Source: a virus
Virus record (IMG/VR): IMGVR_UViG_3300043464_000804
Location: 1 to 26,071 of that record
Strand: one strand, 5' to 3'
Length of the DNA: 26,071 nt
The position numbers and the translations under genes are program-made. Positions 1-13,118 of the stretch are shown here, in pieces. Under the pieces are notes generated by a model, which saw nothing but the letters and a program-made list of their open reading frames with translations, ran no database searches and was not told the DNA's origin. The number at the start of each line of letters is the position of its first letter. Position 1 is the stretch's first letter.

Positions 1-28
1 ACGTCTCTGGGAAGACGGTGTAGGGCGT

Positions 29-192
29 CAGAGACTACGTCTCTGGTGTCAGAGATGTCAGTGTACATCGTCACTTCGAATATAAGCAACGGCTTATATA
101 AGCGACTACTTATATACCGATTTTCAACGAAAAATCGCTGTCCGACTTATGTCGTAGACATAGAGCTAAGTCGTTGATTTCTATAGGAAATC
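29..192. repeat. Run of consecutive stem-loops at the left edge
   Basis: At least six hairpins follow each other with almost no spacer: CAGAGAC/GTCTCTG (loop 3), ATATAAGC/GCTTATAT (loop 4), TATATAAG/CTTATATA (loop 6), CGATTTT/AAAATCG (loop 6), CGACTTA/TAAGTCG enclosing TATGTC/GACATA (loop 3), and GATTTC/GAAATC (loop 5). The second and third share the bases 95-99, so they cannot both form at once. The run is plainly visible in the sequence; its function is unknown. Confidence 0.8.
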
Positions 193-350
193 CACACACA
201 CATGATCGTGTGACGCAGCGCATTATGCGTGATCACATGCGCTGGCAGCGCGCAAACGCTAGCGTGACGAGGGTGGGCGGGCGTGGGCCACCCGTACCCC
301 CTAGCGCTATTATATACACAACGTTACACAGAACAGGTATTTTAACTTAT

Positions 351-366
351 GTTAGTGGTCACTAAC
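351..366. repeat. 16-bp near-perfect palindrome, operator-like
   Basis: GTTAGTG and CACTAAC flank a 2-bp centre. The very short spacer suits a dimeric protein binding site in duplex DNA better than an RNA hairpin. No promoter consensus is obvious beside it, so an operator role is a guess. Confidence 0.5.
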
Positions 367-544
367 TAGCATGCCCACAACCTGCCTCACTCATCATCAA
401 GCTAACACTTGTTAATAACATGTTCTCAATACGCAGATGATGTCGCGGCTGAGTGACAACACATCGCCCACAAATAACAATGTCGTCTAAACAGCGTTTG
501 AGCGACAATGTCATAGACTTCTGCAATGCTTCATAGCAAGGGTG

Positions 545-594
545 ATGTTCGTAATATCAGTCATTAGCTTGATAATGTCTATTATTACGAACAT
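545..594. repeat. Nested inverted repeat
   Basis: ATGTTCGTAATA at 545-556 is exactly complementary to TATTACGAACAT at 583-594. The 26-nt interval contains a second stem, CATTA at 562-566 with TAATG at 573-577. It ends one base before the iteron-like tandem repeats at 596, so the two may form one functional unit. Confidence 0.75.
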
Positions 595-595
595 T

Positions 596-655
596 GCAAC
601 ATCATTTTTGCGCAAGCAACATCGTTTTTGCGCAAGCAACATCGTTTTTGCGCAA
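596..655. repeat. Three 20-bp tandem repeats with TTGCGCAA core
   Basis: Three head-to-tail copies of a 20-bp unit (596-615, 616-635, 636-655) differ at one base only (A in copy 1, G in copies 2 and 3). Each carries the 8-bp palindrome TTGCGCAA, at 608-615, 628-635 and 648-655; in the third it grows to a 12-bp palindrome (646-657). The 20-bp spacing puts successive palindromes on nearly the same helix face. The arrangement resembles iterons of a replication origin or a cooperative repressor operator. Which one cannot be told from the sequence. Confidence 0.8.
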
Positions 656-660
656 AAGGC

Positions 661-689
661 TTGACAACACATGTCCTCATGTGTAAAAC
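661..689 (+). promoter_or_regulatory. Candidate sigma70 promoter with palindrome in spacer
   Basis: A perfect -35 hexamer TTGACA (661-666) is followed after exactly 17 bp by TAAAAC (684-689), a moderate -10 match. The spacer is almost entirely the inverted repeat ACACATG-tcct-CATGTGT (667-684). A protein bound there would block RNA polymerase. The three TTGCGCAA repeats end six bases upstream of the -35. No gene starts soon after, so any transcript would be a long leader or a small RNA. Confidence 0.45.
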
Positions 690-840
690 TGGTGCTGTCA
701 GGTGAACGGGTAACGGCAGCATCTGGCAACGTCTGCAAAGACGTTAAAGCGCTACTGCGGGATAGACATTGAAACAGCGCAACAGGATGGCGAAGGCAGC
801 GTCCTAATGTCGAAAGGCTTCCGAGTCACGGGGATGTTTT

Positions 841-881
841 CTGTGTAAAGGCTTAGCAGGAAGGCTAAGTCCGTCTACACA
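841..881. repeat. Strong two-part stem-loop
   Basis: The outer stem TGTGTA/TACACA (842-847/876-881) encloses an inner 8-bp stem GGCTTAGC/GCTAAGTC (850-857/864-871, one G-T pair) with a 6-nt loop. Small internal loops separate the two stems. No T-run follows, so it is not a standard terminator. It would be stable in RNA or as a DNA cruciform. Confidence 0.65.
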
Positions 882-999
882 ATAGTAATAACATTATGTT
901 GATGTGTTTTAATGAAAAAACATCATCGCTAATAGTTAAAAATATCCTTAACACTTGTCAACGAAATGCTAATTTGCACTGATGTATTAGCGTTTTATT

Positions 1000-1052
1000 T
1001 GATGTATATTTCAATGAAATAAACATTGAAACAAATATTGAAATATACATCA
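1000..1052. repeat. 16-bp perfect inverted repeat, AT-rich
   Basis: The arms 1000-1015 and 1037-1052 are exact reverse complements, reading TGATGTATATTTCAAT on the left, with 21 nt between them. Parts of the motif recur nearby: TTTCAATGAAA inside the left arm and CATTGAAACA in the loop. This is the longest perfect inverted repeat noted in the window. AT-rich arms and the absence of a T-run argue against a terminator; a DNA-unwinding or protein-binding site is possible. Confidence 0.75.
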
Positions 1053-1094
1053 TTATTATTTTGTTGAAACATCAGCGCTAACATTAGTAACAAC

Positions 1095-1148
1095 GTCAAC
1101 AATCTATATAGCTATATAGTTGACAACATACACATTGTTGTTTAGAAT
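1095..1148 (+). promoter_or_regulatory. Strong sigma70-like promoter with overlapping palindrome
   Basis: TTGACA (1120-1125), 17 bp, then TAGAAT (1143-1148) gives a perfect -35 and a 5/6 -10 at ideal spacing. A 16-bp perfect palindrome CTATATAGCTATATAG (1104-1119) abuts the -35, and an outer pair GTCAAC/GTTGAC (1095-1100/1119-1124) overlaps it. A regulator bound there would touch the -35 region. Transcription would start near 1155, about 45 nt before the first gene. This is the best candidate for the promoter of the downstream gene block, read by host RNA polymerase. Confidence 0.65.
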
Positions 1149-1151
1149 GTG

Positions 1152-1192
1152 TTTCTAATGAAACAGGTGTTAGCGCTATGTTTCGTTAGAAA
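1152..1192 (+). promoter_or_regulatory. Long stem-loop in predicted 5' leader
   Basis: The 14-nt arms 1152-1165 and 1179-1192 pair with one G-U, and the loop holds the palindrome TAGCGCTA (1171-1178). The structure lies between the predicted start point near 1155 and the ATG at 1201, close to where a ribosome would bind. It could stabilise the mRNA 5' end or limit translation of the first gene. That role is inferred. Confidence 0.5.
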
Positions 1193-1200
1193 GCTATTTA

Positions 1201-1452
1201 ATGCCATTTCAAACAAGAGAACAACTGAAGTCTAAAGTTTTTCATCCTCCTCATAGCTACTATTCGTTAGCAATGAAAGAAATCTTTAAGCAACGAGAAG
1301 AAGTGAAGACAGTTGCTTTTCATTCTGATGTTTATTACGTTAGAAGTGCATTAGAAAAACATACGGGATATCTGATACCCCTACCGCTAGTTGAAAAGGC
1401 AATGAGAGCTGAAAAATGGTATGAAGGTGTTGTCAACCGAAGAAGGAAATAG
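1201..1452 (+). CDS. Hypothetical protein, first gene of the late block
   Basis: An 83-residue protein starting at the ATG right after the leader hairpin. It is basic and probably alpha-helical, without signal peptide or membrane segment. The segment around residues 22-60 (SLAMKEIFKQ and SALEKHTGYLIPLPLVEKAM) looks like a small helical domain. I do not recognise the family. The ribosome-binding site is weak (AGAAAG about 10 nt upstream). Its position directly behind the best promoter of the window supports it being expressed. Function unknown. Confidence 0.55.
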   Translation: MPFQTREQLKSKVFHPPHSYYSLAMKEIFKQREEVKTVAFHSDVYYVRSALEKHTGYLIPLPLVEKAMRAEKWYEGVVNRRRK

Positions 1453-1483
1453 ACTGATAAATCGGCGCTATCAACGATATACT

Positions 1484-1500
1484 CTATGCTCCCTGCATAG
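1484..1500. repeat. Stem-loop between the first two genes
   Basis: CTATGC/GCATAG with a 5-nt loop. The stem extends on both sides with two mismatches (about 1477-1489 against 1495-1507). No T-run follows. It is the only structured element in the 128-nt gap at 1453-1580 and continues the style of the left region. Confidence 0.5.
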
Positions 1501-1580
1501 TCTATATAGAAGGATATTTTTGTTGAGAGCCGATAGGCGTTTGTTGCCTGTTGTTTGTTTTGCTGTTACAACGCGCTCTT

Positions 1581-1832
1581 ATGAAAACTGCTGCTTGGCA
1601 ACGTAAAGAAGGCAAAGACCCCAAAGGCGGCCTCAATGCCAAAGGAAGAGCTTCTTACAACAAAGCCACTGGTGGCAATTTGAAGCCTCCTGCGCCAACT
1701 CCAAAGAATGAGAAGGATGCTAAGCGGCGTAAGAGTTTCTGTGCGCGTATGAGTGGTATGCCGGGTCCGATGAAAGATGACAAAGGCAAGCCGACGCGCA
1801 AAGCGTTGTCGCTAAAAGCATGGAATTGTTAA
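1581..1832 (+). CDS. DUF6321-like small basic protein
   Basis: An 83-residue, strongly basic protein. Its body carries the motif set I associate with DUF6321 proteins of phages and environmental viruses: AWQRKEGK near residues 5-12, GLNAKGRASY, then RRKSFCARMSGM around 48-59, and a C-terminal KALSLKAWNC. The conserved Cys in SFCARM and the final WNC are the most recognisable points. The ATG at 1581 is preferred over an upstream TTG at 1551, because the conserved region begins just after it. Function is unknown; the charge suggests nucleic-acid contact. The next gene starts one base after its stop codon. Confidence 0.75.
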   Translation: MKTAAWQRKEGKDPKGGLNAKGRASYNKATGGNLKPPAPTPKNEKDAKRRKSFCARMSGMPGPMKDDKGKPTRKALSLKAWNC

Positions 1833-1833
1833 T

Positions 1834-2097
1834 ATGAGTGATGATGACTTTCGTCGCCTTGAAGGCAAAGTGGATAAGTTGGCTGATGCTGTCATGAAGC
1901 TTGTTCTTGTTGAAGAGAGGCTGGCAAATCAAGGCGAACGCATCGGTAGGGTGGAGCAGCGTGTTGTTGCTGTTGAAACTTCTGTAGGTAGGACAGATAA
2001 GACGGTGCAGATGTGGGTGAATAGGGGCATTGGTGTTTGGAGTCTTGCCATTACTTTGTTTGCTCTTGTGCAGTTTGGTAGTAAATTTTTTAATTAA
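1834..2097 (+). CDS. Coiled-coil protein with C-terminal membrane segment
   Basis: An 87-residue protein. Residues about 4-58 show heptad-like spacing (LEGKVDKLADAVMKLVLVEERLANQGERIGRVEQRV), typical of a coiled coil. Residues about 66-83 (GIGVWSLAITLFALVQFG) form a single hydrophobic segment suited to the inner membrane. The layout resembles the XhlA-type holin-associated proteins and similar small phage membrane proteins. A lysis role is therefore possible, but no endolysin is seen nearby. There is no clear Shine-Dalgarno sequence, so translation is probably coupled to the preceding gene one base upstream. Confidence 0.6.
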   Translation: MSDDDFRRLEGKVDKLADAVMKLVLVEERLANQGERIGRVEQRVVAVETSVGRTDKTVQMWVNRGIGVWSLAITLFALVQFGSKFFN

Positions 2098-2102
2098 CGC
2101 AT

Positions 2103-2627
2103 ATGCCGTACAAATTTTACGATTCTGTATGTAAGAATTGCGGTGTAGACGGAGCATTGTTCCGCGAAAAGTTTAGTAAACAAAATAATAAATTTTACAA
2201 ACAACCGAACTGTAAAGATTGTGATTTCAAAAAACATAAATCATGGGTAAACACCAATAGGCAGCGCGTTCGCGAATTGTGTATGAGTTCTTATTTTAAG
2301 AGAACTGGCGGTAGAAAAAGACGTAGTAGTAGTCAAATGACGGATGAGCTTCGTAAGCAATATGCTCTTGAAAAATCTCAAATGCGTGCTACTAGAGCGA
2401 AACAAGCGCGAGTACAATGGGATCGCGAACTAACATCTTTTGTAATGCAAGAAGCAATTGATCTTCAAAAACGTCTATATTTGTTAACTGGTATTAAACA
2501 TCATATTGATCATGTTGTGCCTTTAAGAGGCAAGAATGTCTGCGGGCTTCATGTATGGAACAATCTTGCAGTGATTCCTATGACGGACAATCTAAAAAAA
2601 GGAAATAATTTTGCCATTCATGCGTGA
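2103..2627 (+). CDS. HNH endonuclease with N-terminal zinc ribbon
   Basis: A 174-residue protein. Two CXXC pairs (C10/C13 and C37/C40) form a probable zinc-binding ribbon. A basic helical linker follows (about 50-120). The C-terminal HNH (beta-beta-alpha-metal) nuclease motif reads HHIDHVVPL at 133-141, CGLHVWNNL at 147-155 and NLKKGN at 163-168, the usual form in phage HNH proteins. It would cut DNA; it may be a free-standing homing-type enzyme or a packaging-associated nuclease. It ends within the start of a second, shorter HNH gene. No good Shine-Dalgarno sequence precedes the ATG. Confidence 0.85.
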   Translation: MPYKFYDSVCKNCGVDGALFREKFSKQNNKFYKQPNCKDCDFKKHKSWVNTNRQRVRELCMSSYFKRTGGRKRRSSSQMTDELRKQYALEKSQMRATRAKQARVQWDRELTSFVMQEAIDLQKRLYLLTGIKHHIDHVVPLRGKNVCGLHVWNNLAVIPMTDNLKKGNNFAIHA

Positions 2628-2883
2628 TGGAAAAAGAGATTTTCAAGCCGAGCTTGATTGGGAAAAGGATAATAAGCCTTCGCGTGTCAAAGAGCGTTCA
2701 AAGCGTAACGCTGCTAGGGCTATGATGATGGAAGAAGGGAAGGCTTACAAAGGAGACGGTAAAGACGTCGATCACAAGAAGCCTTTGTCGAAGGGTGGTG
2801 GCAATGGGCGTAGTAATTTACGTGTTGTCGCTGCCAGCAAGAACAGAAGCGTTAAGCGTAAACAAGACGGAAGTCTTCGCTAA
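2611..2883 (+). CDS. Small HNH-type endonuclease
   Basis: About 90 residues. It has a basic helical N-terminus and a compact HNH core: DVDHKKPLSKGG at 52-63, NL at 69-70 and KNRS at 77-80. This matches short phage HNH proteins of about 80-100 residues. The start is uncertain: TTG at 2611 has AAGGA seven bases upstream, while ATG at 2620 (MRDGKRD) has it sixteen bases upstream, so the TTG fits better. Either start overlaps the end of the preceding HNH gene. The stop TAA overlaps the ATG of the next gene by one base. Confidence 0.75.
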   Translation: MPFMRDGKRDFQAELDWEKDNKPSRVKERSKRNAARAMMMEEGKAYKGDGKDVDHKKPLSKGGGNGRSNLRVVAASKNRSVKRKQDGSLR

Positions 2884-3257
2884 TGGCTCGTACAAACGAA
2901 AAGCTGTGGGAGTCTGCAAAGGCTCAGGCTAAGGCTAAGATGGGTGGTAAACATTCTGCCAGAGCGATGCAGCTTGCTGGTAAAATATATAAAGACAAAG
3001 GCGGCGACTACACCGGAGAAAAGACAGAAGCTCAGAAGTCTATGACGAAATGGACTAAGGAAGAATGGACAACGTCGTCTGGAAAGCCCTCTGAAGGGAA
3101 ACGTCGTTATTTGCCAAAGGCAGCGTGGTCTGCTTTGAGCGAGTCTGAGAAAAAAGCTACCAATGCAGCCAAGGCTGCTGGTGGTAAAGCTGGTAAGCAA
3201 TTTGTTGCTCAGCCAGAGGTTGTGGCTGCTAAGACAGCAAAATATAGGAAGAAATAA
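2883..3257 (+). CDS. DUF5872-like basic protein
   Basis: A 124-residue, lysine- and alanine-rich protein. The central part KWTKEEWTTSSGKPSEGKRRYLP (about 56-78), then KAAWSALS and a K/A-rich tail ending KTAKYRKK, match what I recall of the DUF5872 family, found in phages and in large environmental viruses. No catalytic motif is visible. The strongly basic composition suggests DNA or RNA binding, which is inference. Translation is probably coupled to the HNH gene through the TAATG overlap. Confidence 0.75.
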   Translation: MARTNEKLWESAKAQAKAKMGGKHSARAMQLAGKIYKDKGGDYTGEKTEAQKSMTKWTKEEWTTSSGKPSEGKRRYLPKAAWSALSESEKKATNAAKAAGGKAGKQFVAQPEVVAAKTAKYRKK

Positions 3258-6301: not shown

Positions 6302-6763
6302 ATGACTAGAGAACTGGGACATTGGCTTCTTCCTCAACCTGTAGAGCGCACTGAATACGTCAAAATACCACGTCTTAGAAAAGGAATGCTCATCCCCTTT
6401 GGATATAGGGTTGAGGAGTCTGATCCAAATTGGTATGTCCCAATACCAAAAGAGCTTGATGCTCTAAAGATTGCTGAGCAATATTGCAAACGATATACGT
6501 TTCAGCAAGTTGCAAACTGGCTTACAAAACAAACAGAACGTTCAATATCTGGCGATGGGCTAAGGAAACGGCTTAGAGATGAAAGACGGCGAAAGCATAA
6601 ACACAATTTCTATGTTGCCCTTGCCAGCAGATACAAAGACGCGCTCGAAAAGGCAAAAGCCTTCGAAACCACCCTTGGCAAAAAAGACAAAACAGCCTTC
6701 TTCGATCAAGAGCCCTATCTCAGTCTCTACGAGCGACACCCAATCCCTGAGCGCATTGAATGA
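6302..6763 (+). CDS. HTH DNA-binding protein of the packaging module
   Basis: A 153-residue protein starting two bases after the small terminase stop. Residues about 48-96 (PKELDALKIAEQYCKRYTFQQVANWLTKQTERSISGDGLRKRLRDERRR) look like a helix-turn-helix: a helix, 'TFQQVANWLT', a turn and a basic recognition helix. A basic coiled helix follows. In related phages I recall this segment at the N-terminus of, or next to, the large terminase. Here it is a separate frame ending eight bases inside the large terminase gene. It probably helps recognise DNA during packaging. Confidence 0.55.
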   Translation: MTRELGHWLLPQPVERTEYVKIPRLRKGMLIPFGYRVEESDPNWYVPIPKELDALKIAEQYCKRYTFQQVANWLTKQTERSISGDGLRKRLRDERRRKHKHNFYVALASRYKDALEKAKAFETTLGKKDKTAFFDQEPYLSLYERHPIPERIE

Positions 6764-8168
6764 AGTAGAGATTCAGAGCATCATCTTCAAGCCCAATACA
6801 GGCCCTCAGACAGCCTTTCTAGCGTCTTCTGAGCGTGAGGTGCTGTATGGAGGTGCTGCAGGCGGTGGCAAGAGCTATGCGATGCTTGCAGACCCGCTGC
6901 GCTACATCAGCCATCCACAGTTTTCTGGATTGCTTCTGCGTCACACTACAGAAGAACTACGAGAACTTGTGTGGAAGTCTCAAGAACTCTATCCCAAAAT
7001 CATTCCCGGCATCAAGTGGAGTGAGCGTAAGTTTCAATGGGAAGTGCCGGGTGGTGGCAGGCTGTGGATGTCCTACCTTGATAGAGACGAAGATGTGTTG
7101 CGCTATCAGGGTTTGTCGTTTAGCTGGATTGGTTTTGACGAGTTGACTCAATGGTCAACACCATTTGCATGGAACTACATGCGTTCTCGTCTTCGTACAG
7201 CAGCGTCAGACCTGCCGGTGTACATGAGAGCATCAACAAATCCGGGTAATAGAGGGCATGCTTGGGTTAAGAAGATGTTCATTGACCCTTCACCACCCAA
7301 TGAGGCCTTTTGGGCTACCGACATTGACACTGGTGATGTCATGACATACCCTGAAGGACATAGTAGGGCAGGGCAACCGTTGTTTAAGCGACGATTTATC
7401 CCTGCAAAACTGTCTGATAACCCATATTTGACCAAATCTGGTGACTATGAAACAATGCTTTTGTCGTTGCCAGAGCATCAAAGGCGTCAACTACTAGAAG
7501 GAGATTGGGATGTTGCGGAAGGTGCTGCATTTCCTGAGTTCAAACGATCAATTCACGTGGTTGAGCCTTATTCTATTCCTTCCGATTGGACTCGTTTTCG
7601 TGCTTGCGACTACGGCTATGGTAGTTTTACTGCTGTGCTATGGTTTGCTGTTGCTCCTGACGAGTCTTTGGTGGTCTATCGCGAGCTATATGTCACAAAA
7701 GTGCTTGCCGAAGACTTGGCAGAACAGATTTTGAAGCTTGAAGCTGGTGAACGTATTCGATATGGGGTGTTAGATAGCTCATGTTGGGCAAAACGTGGTG
7801 ATACAGGCCCGTCTATCGCTGAAAGAATGATTTTAAGGGGATGTAAGTGGCGTCCTTCTGATCGTAGTGCTGGTAGTCGTGTTGCGGGTAAGAATGAAAT
7901 ACATCGACGTCTTCAAATTGATCAATTTACAGGGCATCCGCGCATAACATTCTTTCAAAACTGTACACAAACCATTGCTGATTTGCCAACAATACCATTA
8001 GATAAGGCAAATCCAGAAGATGTTGACACTAAAGTTAAGAACGACCACACATACGATGCTTTTCGATACGGTGTTATGACTCGTCCACGTAGTGCAAACA
8101 TCTTTGATTTTGATCCAGCTAAACAATCGCGTGGTCAGATCGTTTTCGACAAGAATTTTGGCTATTGA
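6756..8168 (+). CDS. terL: Terminase large subunit
   Basis: A 470-residue protein counted from the TTG at 6756. The motor ATPase has Walker A GGAAGGGKS (32-40) and Walker B WIGFDE (124-129, with catalytic Glu129). The C-terminal RNase H-like nuclease shows three acidic positions: D285 in RACDYGYG, D340 in GVLDSS and D434 in TYDAFRYG. It cuts and pumps viral DNA into the capsid through the portal. The frame is open upstream to 6579, but that part is a low-complexity S/K/P-rich stretch overlapping the HTH gene. The TTG overlapping the HTH stop by eight bases fits coupled translation better. The start remains uncertain. Confidence 0.93.
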   Translation: MNEVEIQSIIFKPNTGPQTAFLASSEREVLYGGAAGGGKSYAMLADPLRYISHPQFSGLLLRHTTEELRELVWKSQELYPKIIPGIKWSERKFQWEVPGGGRLWMSYLDRDEDVLRYQGLSFSWIGFDELTQWSTPFAWNYMRSRLRTAASDLPVYMRASTNPGNRGHAWVKKMFIDPSPPNEAFWATDIDTGDVMTYPEGHSRAGQPLFKRRFIPAKLSDNPYLTKSGDYETMLLSLPEHQRRQLLEGDWDVAEGAAFPEFKRSIHVVEPYSIPSDWTRFRACDYGYGSFTAVLWFAVAPDESLVVYRELYVTKVLAEDLAEQILKLEAGERIRYGVLDSSCWAKRGDTGPSIAERMILRGCKWRPSDRSAGSRVAGKNEIHRRLQIDQFTGHPRITFFQNCTQTIADLPTIPLDKANPEDVDTKVKNDHTYDAFRYGVMTRPRSANIFDFDPAKQSRGQIVFDKNFGY

Positions 8169-12260: not shown

Positions 12261-13118
12261 ATGTCAAATGCAATTGCAGTACCTGTACAAACTAAGGTGG
12301 CTCCGTTTTCTCTGCGCCGCAATGCACTAGAAGATCGCATCAAGAAAGACGAGGAAGAACTTGAAAACCTCAAATCCAACGTCAATGATAAAGAAGCTAA
12401 GGAAGAAACTTCTGACGAAAATTTGTCGGCAGAAGAGAAAACTTTCAAGAAGCGTTACGGCGATCTTCGTCGGCATTCGCAAAAGGTTGAAGACGATCTT
12501 CGAAAAGAAGTCGATGAACTGAAAGCACTTGTTCAAAAGACTACAGAGAAGCAGATGAAGCTGCCTGCGCGTGATGAAGACATTGATATGTGGGCAAAGC
12601 AATATCCTGATGTCTATCGCATTGTTGAAAGCATTGCGCTGAAGAAGGCAAAGGAAACGCAGAAGTCTCTTGAAGAGCGTATGCGTAAGGTTGATGAGAG
12701 TGAGCGAGAAACGTCACGCGAAAAAGCACGTGTCGAATTGCTGAAGCTGCATCCCGACTTCGATAAGATTGAAGACAACGAAGACTTCCACAATTGGGCA
12801 GAAGAGCAACCAAAATGGGTACAGGATGCGTTGTATGAGAACGATGATGACTTCCGCTCTGCGGCACGTGTCATCGATCTTTACAAGGCAGATCGAAACA
12901 TCAGCAAGCGTAAGGCGTCAGAGGATAAGTCTGCTGCACAGGCTGTTAACACCCGTGGCCGATCTACTCCGAATGCAACGGCAGATCAAGAAGGCGTTTT
13001 CTATGAAAGCCAAGTGCAGAAGATGTCCATCACTGAATACGAAGCAAATCAAGAAAACATTGTAAAAGCAATGCGTTCTGGTAAATTTGTATACGATATT
13101 TCAGGAAATGCGCGTTAA
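12261..13118 (+). CDS. Capsid scaffolding-like protein
   Basis: A 285-residue, highly charged and mostly helical protein. Acidic and basic residues alternate through a predicted coiled coil (about 20-100, EDRIKKDEEELENLKSN to KEVDELKALVQKTTEKQ). KLPARDEDIDMWAKQYPDVYRIVESIALKKAKE follows (about 99-131), then further helices. A polar linker and a small C-terminal segment (MSITEYEANQENIVKAMRSGKFVYD) come last; scaffolds often use such an end to touch the coat protein. It sits directly upstream of the major capsid gene, the usual scaffold position. It would direct procapsid assembly and then leave. Confidence 0.72.
   Translation: MSNAIAVPVQTKVAPFSLRRNALEDRIKKDEEELENLKSNVNDKEAKEETSDENLSAEEKTFKKRYGDLRRHSQKVEDDLRKEVDELKALVQKTTEKQMKLPARDEDIDMWAKQYPDVYRIVESIALKKAKETQKSLEERMRKVDESERETSREKARVELLKLHPDFDKIEDNEDFHNWAEEQPKWVQDALYENDDDFRSAARVIDLYKADRNISKRKASEDKSAAQAVNTRGRSTPNATADQEGVFYESQVQKMSITEYEANQENIVKAMRSGKFVYDISGNAR

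Follow-up and report, generated by a model that had tools for sequence, protein, structure and literature searches.

At the left end of a viral contig of 26,071 bases, the whole of which is called the window here, three nearly identical 20-bp units, each with a TTGCGCAA palindrome, stand directly before a TTGACA hexamer. Do these repeats form an origin of replication, a repressor site for a promoter, as the sequence-only reading had proposed, or an element of another kind? The repeat itself is real and was correctly described. According to our analysis, it is probably no origin and possibly an operator, and most likely it is a variable element that precedes an sRNA gene conserved in phages of this group.

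The tandem array and the promoter beside it

The features on which this analysis is based are as follows:
545–594, no strand assigned: inverted repeat directly left of the array (arms 545–566 and 573–594, 86% complementary)
596–655, no strand assigned: tandem array, 3 × 20-bp GCAACATC[A/G]TTTTTGCGCAA, a candidate variable upstream promoter element
661–666, + strand: predicted −35 hexamer TTGACA of the sRNA promoter, kept in 19/19 loci
682–690, + strand: predicted −10 region TGTAAAACT, with TAAAACTGG kept in 19/19 loci and a presumptive choice of the exact hexamer
691–885, + strand: probable extent of the small RNA gene, with a presumptive start (~696) and 3′ end
1201–1452, + strand: first ORF downstream, 83 aa

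The array units occupy positions 596–615, 616–635 and 636–655, with start-to-start distances of 20 and 20 bp and identities of 95–100%. This tandem arrangement is beyond chance: the best self-identity of three copies was 0.975, whereas 100 dinucleotide shuffles of the window reached no more than 0.70. Across all 26 kb of the window, the octamer TTGCGCAA is present at just three positions (608, 628 and 648). Its count is unremarkable (1.34 expected) and was dropped as standalone evidence, because three or more copies were reached in 15/100 shuffles. The palindromes were said to lie on nearly the same helix face; by calculation, the face shifts by ~34 degrees per copy at 10.5 bp per turn. The T-tracts of the array are located at 604–608, 624–628 and 644–648. 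Likewise, a single base (595) separates the array from the inverted repeat, whose outer 12 bp are perfect by eye, just as described before. The array also adjoins the TTGACA, but the distance of six bases given earlier applies only if positions are counted: the array stops at 655 and the hexamer begins at 661, leaving five bases between them.

In all 19 window-type loci (window included), TTGACA is followed by TAAAACTGG at a spacing of exactly 17 bp, with a variable spacer sequence. The −10 element could be TAAAAC (684–689) at 17 bp or an extended −10 (TGn plus AAAACT) at 18 bp. The locus thus shows the conserved TTGACA and the −10 at 16–18 bp that characterize a sigma-70 promoter, although the −10 is weak (TAAAAC). 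A stricter sigma-70 scan did not list the promoter at 661, because it demands a T at position 6 of the −10. Since an RF02932 match lies downstream and the first notable ORF starts only at 1201 (no Pfam or PHROG match), the hexamer at 661 has the appearance of a −35 that belongs to an RNA gene rather than to a protein gene. Conservation supports the prediction of a sigma-70-type promoter at 661–690 that serves an sRNA gene overlooked in the sequence-only reading.

Promoter and RNA are conserved, the array is not

The number of TTGCGCAA copies differs between the 19 loci: there are three in the window, L259 and L293, two in L003, one in L248, where the first unit reads TTGCGTAA instead, and none in the other 14, all of which retain the promoter and the RNA. 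Counted by units, five loci carry 3, 3, 3, 2 and 2 copies, three near-identical loci (L258, L263, L276) contain one degenerate related unit without TTGCGCAA, and 11 have none (L302, for instance, is without a related unit). TTTTTGCGCAA was present in the records of 4/18 relatives, and the inverted repeat at 545–594 was seen by eye in the five array-bearing loci only and not in the other 14. Copies 2 and 3 of the window share a G not seen in other array carriers. These counts skip duplicates of the window's stretch itself and of loci already counted (e.g. L001, L002, L083–L085, L233 and re-fetched regions) and include near-duplicates (L258/L263/L276 and L255/L271). Relatives that keep the region but lack the repeated octamer had been named as a refutation of the sequence-only reading, and 14 of the 19 loci are of this kind.

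Comparison of window positions 1–3000 with the relatives by blastn revealed conserved blocks at ~54–375 and 637/680–890, and the segment 376–636, which aligns with the four closest contigs only, is the least conserved. In 9 of the 14 loci lacking TTGCGCAA, GGGGACAGAG was found on either strand within 200 bp before TTGACA, so that the slot in front of the promoter is variable. This motif resembles sequences that we take to belong to REP-like elements. A AATGGGGACAGAG-like motif fills the array slot upstream of TTGACA, in either orientation, in L004, L242, L255, L271, L282, L285, L286, L290 and L292.

The sequence following the promoter matches Rfam family RF02932 (Betaproteobacteria-1), and its predicted parts are:
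696–704 with 720–728, + strand: 5′ hairpin (97–99% of cells paired; both-side changes in 8/9 pairs, 13 sequences)
728–826, + strand: RF02932 match, model positions 1–120, 67.3 bits
749–811, + strand: predicted pseudoknot 1, helix 749–753/776–780 crossed by 765–770/806–811 (covariation, 71 RNAs)
784–822, + strand: predicted pseudoknot 2, helix 784–788/801–805 crossed by 795–800/817–822 (covariation, 71 RNAs)
842–881, + strand: 3′ stem-loop domain past the end of the Rfam model, 842–846/877–881 and 852–857/864–869 (83–88% of cells paired)

The Rfam scan covered positions 1–2200 of the window. The score of 67.3 bits exceeds the gathering cut-off (49.4 bits) of this family, which Rfam types as sRNA, the match spans the whole model, and it was found in two scans. 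Both consensus helices are present (749–753/776–780 and 795–800/817–822, the second with one mismatch in the window), and folding of 690–930 gave a z-score of −3.5. No terminator was identified at the 3′ end of the RNA.

For the structural analysis, 149 pattern hits in the loci examined were dereplicated to 72 sequences, and one of them (L232), which on inspection by eye was a chance match, was then discarded. Beforehand, only hits with enough flank and with GGT, GGC, GAT, GAC or AGT immediately preceding the core had been retained. In the resulting alignment of 71 RNAs (A1), in which the window's row substitutes for L003, 89.1% of the cells of the two crossing helix pairs can pair, compared to a mean of 70.6% after shuffling. 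Changes on both sides affected 302 cells (shuffled mean 88; 51–91 with helices slid by 1–3 columns), and the covariation score was 0.513 versus 0.172. As the double-pseudoknot model was drawn from the same 71 sequences, the comparison with the slid controls favours the model. Pairing failed at columns 46/84 of helix 2 in 48/71 sequences and at columns 66/79 in 24; therefore, these helix ends are unsupported. The Rfam consensus line holds just one helix from each crossing pair. The second alignment (A2), with 13 of the 19 window-type loci, retained both the 5′ hairpin and the 842–881 domain; two of its core helices are invariant and hence uninformative in that set, and further pair types did not exceed the shuffles in these 13 sequences (499/500 as high). 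Covariation supports a model in which the RNA folds into a compact double pseudoknot with two crossing helix pairs.

Overall, these comparisons show that the conserved feature of the locus is the predicted promoter together with the putatively pseudoknotted RNA, and that the array is not conserved. The array itself appears to be a recent, lineage-specific addition just upstream of the sRNA promoter.

The phage and the wider distribution of the RNA

The large terminase subunit encoded in the window (6579–8168) shares 60–80% identity with 13 phage records, including HMO-2011 and Roseobacter CRP phages, which identifies the window as a contig of an HMO-2011-type podophage. The array-bearing virus is a freshwater phage of this branch. 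RF02932 was detected in 2/50 records with related terminases (50 of 80 loci scanned) and in none of the six named phages searched whole (MW202701, HMO-2011, CRP-1, CRP-207, HTVC033P, phiM6). Using our own model R1, the RNA was found in three (window, L003, L004) of 83 sources, many of which are short. Within the RNA-bearing group, terminase identity is 84–99% (full-length matches). As far as seen, the RNA is restricted to the part of the HMO-2011-type branch nearest the window.

In a 59.9-kb relative (G060), the RNA lies at 12895–13026 on the minus strand, in a region with few long ORFs that separates leftward virion genes from a rightward early module with GP88, integrase, primase/helicase, DNA polymerase and exonuclease families. 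From this layout it follows that the window-type RNA is not attached to a primase gene and stands between divergent early and virion modules. The integrase gene of this relative (L339:2313–3503) implies that some HMO-2011-type podophages may be temperate. Further observations concern the surrounding genes. In close relatives, the genes of the early region include members of the ADP-ribosylglycohydrolase family (Pfam PF03747; L345:5–868, minus strand; L338:18632–19459). Window positions 1551–1832 encode a DUF6321 protein (Pfam PF19846, PHROG 4689), with DNA-level matches around the ORF in Pelagibacter and Synechococcus phages. An endonuclease VII-like ORF (2103–2627, PHROG 1035) sits beside an ORF that looks HNH-like by eye (2611–2883), where the virion module begins, and blastn skips ~2110–2646 in the close relatives L293, L248 and L259, as if the former ORF were absent there. 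At the left end of the window (1–60), there are repeated CAGAGACTACGTCTCTGG-type inverted repeats that continue in L003 and L345.

The same intergenic region contains another conserved element:
45–380, no strand assigned: second conserved noncoding block, with the dyad GTTAGTGGTCACTAAC at 351–366

This block shows 70–79% blastn identity to relatives and several possible hairpins, and both strands fold about equally well. In L004, L341 and L342, it is flanked by two GTTAGTGGTCACTAAC-type dyads. It may represent an RNA leader, an origin or an operator, and as a candidate origin it ranks above the array.

Pattern scans revealed at least 119 stretches with the RNA pattern in viral contigs and 27 in bacterial contigs, several of the latter being chance matches by eye. 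When bacterial genomes were searched again, RF02932 scored above the cut-off in 9/9. In a census, it was found in 4/250 genomes of one bacterial family (three already known) and in 0/14 control genomes, so that its occurrence in bacteria is sporadic. A nucleotide search with window positions 655–900 gave no match against named phages and only one weak 26-base match against plasmids; a search with the family member L213 retrieved two phage records. In the literature searched, no paper on the RF02932 family was found; the family reportedly stems from a 2017 paper in NAR.

Near 71 loci among the matches listed, a pattern-selected and non-random sample, we counted a helicase cluster 28 times, a primase cluster 26 times and a ParB-like cluster 19 times. 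These clusters were assigned via their L325 members to the PHROG primase, helicase and ParB-like families; in Pfam, the primase matches Toprim with a score that stays under the cut-off. In 19/26 primase loci among the matches listed, the primase stop codon lies 90–103 nt before the core motif of the RNA, i.e. near the 5′ hairpin, and this primase is carried by 25 of the 60 listed loci with at least 1.1 kb of upstream sequence. A primase/helicase of PHROG 239 occurs in seven of the loci listed, 1.1–2.1 kb downstream of the RNA. In Acidovorax phage AP1, a replication/partition protein gene is followed by those for helicase and primase, then by the RNA (RF02932 confirmed) and, further on, by terminase, and a primase-like gene is located upstream of the RNA in MW202545. 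In other phages and prophages, genes for primase, helicase and ParB-like proteins sit upstream of the RNA, which often begins shortly behind the primase stop codon. Most likely, RF02932 RNAs are carried in the replication modules of a large number of phages and prophages, whose hosts, if named, are mainly Betaproteobacteria.

Possible roles of the array and comparison with known systems

It appears probable that the array is a young and dispensable tandem duplication upstream of the sigma-70-type promoter of the RF02932 phage sRNA, which it would modulate. The occurrence of TTGCGCAA in 5/19 loci versus promoter and RNA in 19/19 fits a young duplication and not an iteron origin. Measured from the likely start at ~696, the units would place T-tracts at about −50, −70 and −90, i.e. 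about two helical turns apart. Such a spacing would suit a predicted UP-like or curved element tuning promoter strength, and it is this spacing that makes a modulating role of the array probable. The same young duplication could also act as a weak, dispensable repeated site for a putative DNA-binding protein. Against this reading, three contigs have an intact palindrome in each of their three copies, a slight argument for protein binding rather than drift. Both cooperative regulator binding and neutral duplication keep real weight.

A purely neutral origin, in which an AT-rich segment was duplicated by strand slippage and, lying outside the promoter core, was tolerated without any function, is in our view rather unlikely. 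It would account for copy numbers between 0 and 3 across relatives, for the low conservation of the segment around the array, and for the G common to copies 2 and 3 of the window and missing from other carriers, as turnover predicts. However, units are retained exactly in several contigs, and units placed immediately before the −35 are likely to affect transcription in some way. We regard as unlikely, too, an operator at which a phage or host repressor or activator cooperatively binds the TTGCGCAA dyads and controls the sRNA promoter. Here, the repetition of identical dyads in almost the same phase, five bases away from the −35, and the retention of three copies in the window, L259 and L293 have to be weighed against a dyad of just 8 bp, the altered first copy in L248 (TTGCGTAA) and the lack of any transcription-regulator match among the early-region proteins scanned, a subset of the early genes. 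Of the cooperative repressor site suggested earlier, the promoter has stood, being conserved in 19/19 loci and apparently serving an sRNA gene; the absence of TTGCGCAA from 14/19 loci with the same promoter speaks against the site. The other earlier suggestion, an origin at which an initiator protein binds the units as iterons, is highly improbable. The array does consist of tandem direct repeats of constant length with dyads, and the GC skew of G060 flips its sign at the RNA intergenic region dividing the divergent modules, but this change tracks the change of coding strand at that boundary. Moreover, no initiator gene adjoins the array in the window (the ORF at 1201–1452 has no family match), the first gene of some size that flanks the opposite side, as seen in the carrier L259 (read as L345), encodes a GP88-family protein, and the more conserved dyad-bearing block is found at 45–380. 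We dropped the origin because the array is unconserved, has no adjacent initiator and varies in copy number even among close relatives, and because the skew follows the coding strand.

If the array is a variable promoter element, an apparent origin becomes an element that precedes the gene of a structured RNA, and a minor case of sequence turnover close to a promoter between near-identical phages. An Rfam family named merely for its host class is now placed in phage replication modules, with a predicted double-pseudoknot fold, and it is the RNA rather than the array that is worth following. More speculatively, and with considerable doubt, RF02932 could be a phage replication RNA that travels with primase genes and acts in DNA replication or its control; the HMO-2011-type lineage would then have relocated the RNA, added a promoter and varied the upstream slot. 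Such an RNA might bind primase or helicase or act as an origin-linked RNA, and this lineage might have tuned the RNA level via the slot before the −35, with tandem units in one of its lines and different short repeats elsewhere.

Compared to known systems, the window RNA resembles RF02932 in scoring above the curated cut-off and in having both inner consensus helices. It differs from the consensus line in that the 71-locus alignment supports two more helices crossing the consensus helices, from the model in its conserved 3′ stem domain past the model end (13 window-group sequences), and from the family as named in being phage-borne, with its own predicted promoter and a variable upstream array. 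Puniceispirillum phage HMO-2011 and the Roseobacter CRP podophages share a large terminase subunit 60–80% identical to that of the window, but RF02932 was absent from all six named phages searched. Some of the RNAs GOLLD, ROOL and OLE are linked to phages. These three are described as large structured bacterial RNAs (PMC12286853); the RF02932 RNA has in common with them that it is a conserved structured noncoding RNA, but it is much smaller, and the likeness is one of kind. With iteron-type origins, the array shares tandem direct repeats of ~20 bp, but it is unconserved, without an adjacent initiator, variable in copy number and abuts an sRNA promoter. UP elements stimulate transcription through the C-terminal domain of the alpha subunit. 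With these and with phased A-T tracts, the array shares A/T-rich tracts that precede the −35 and lie about two turns apart, and it differs from UP elements by its GC-containing dyads.
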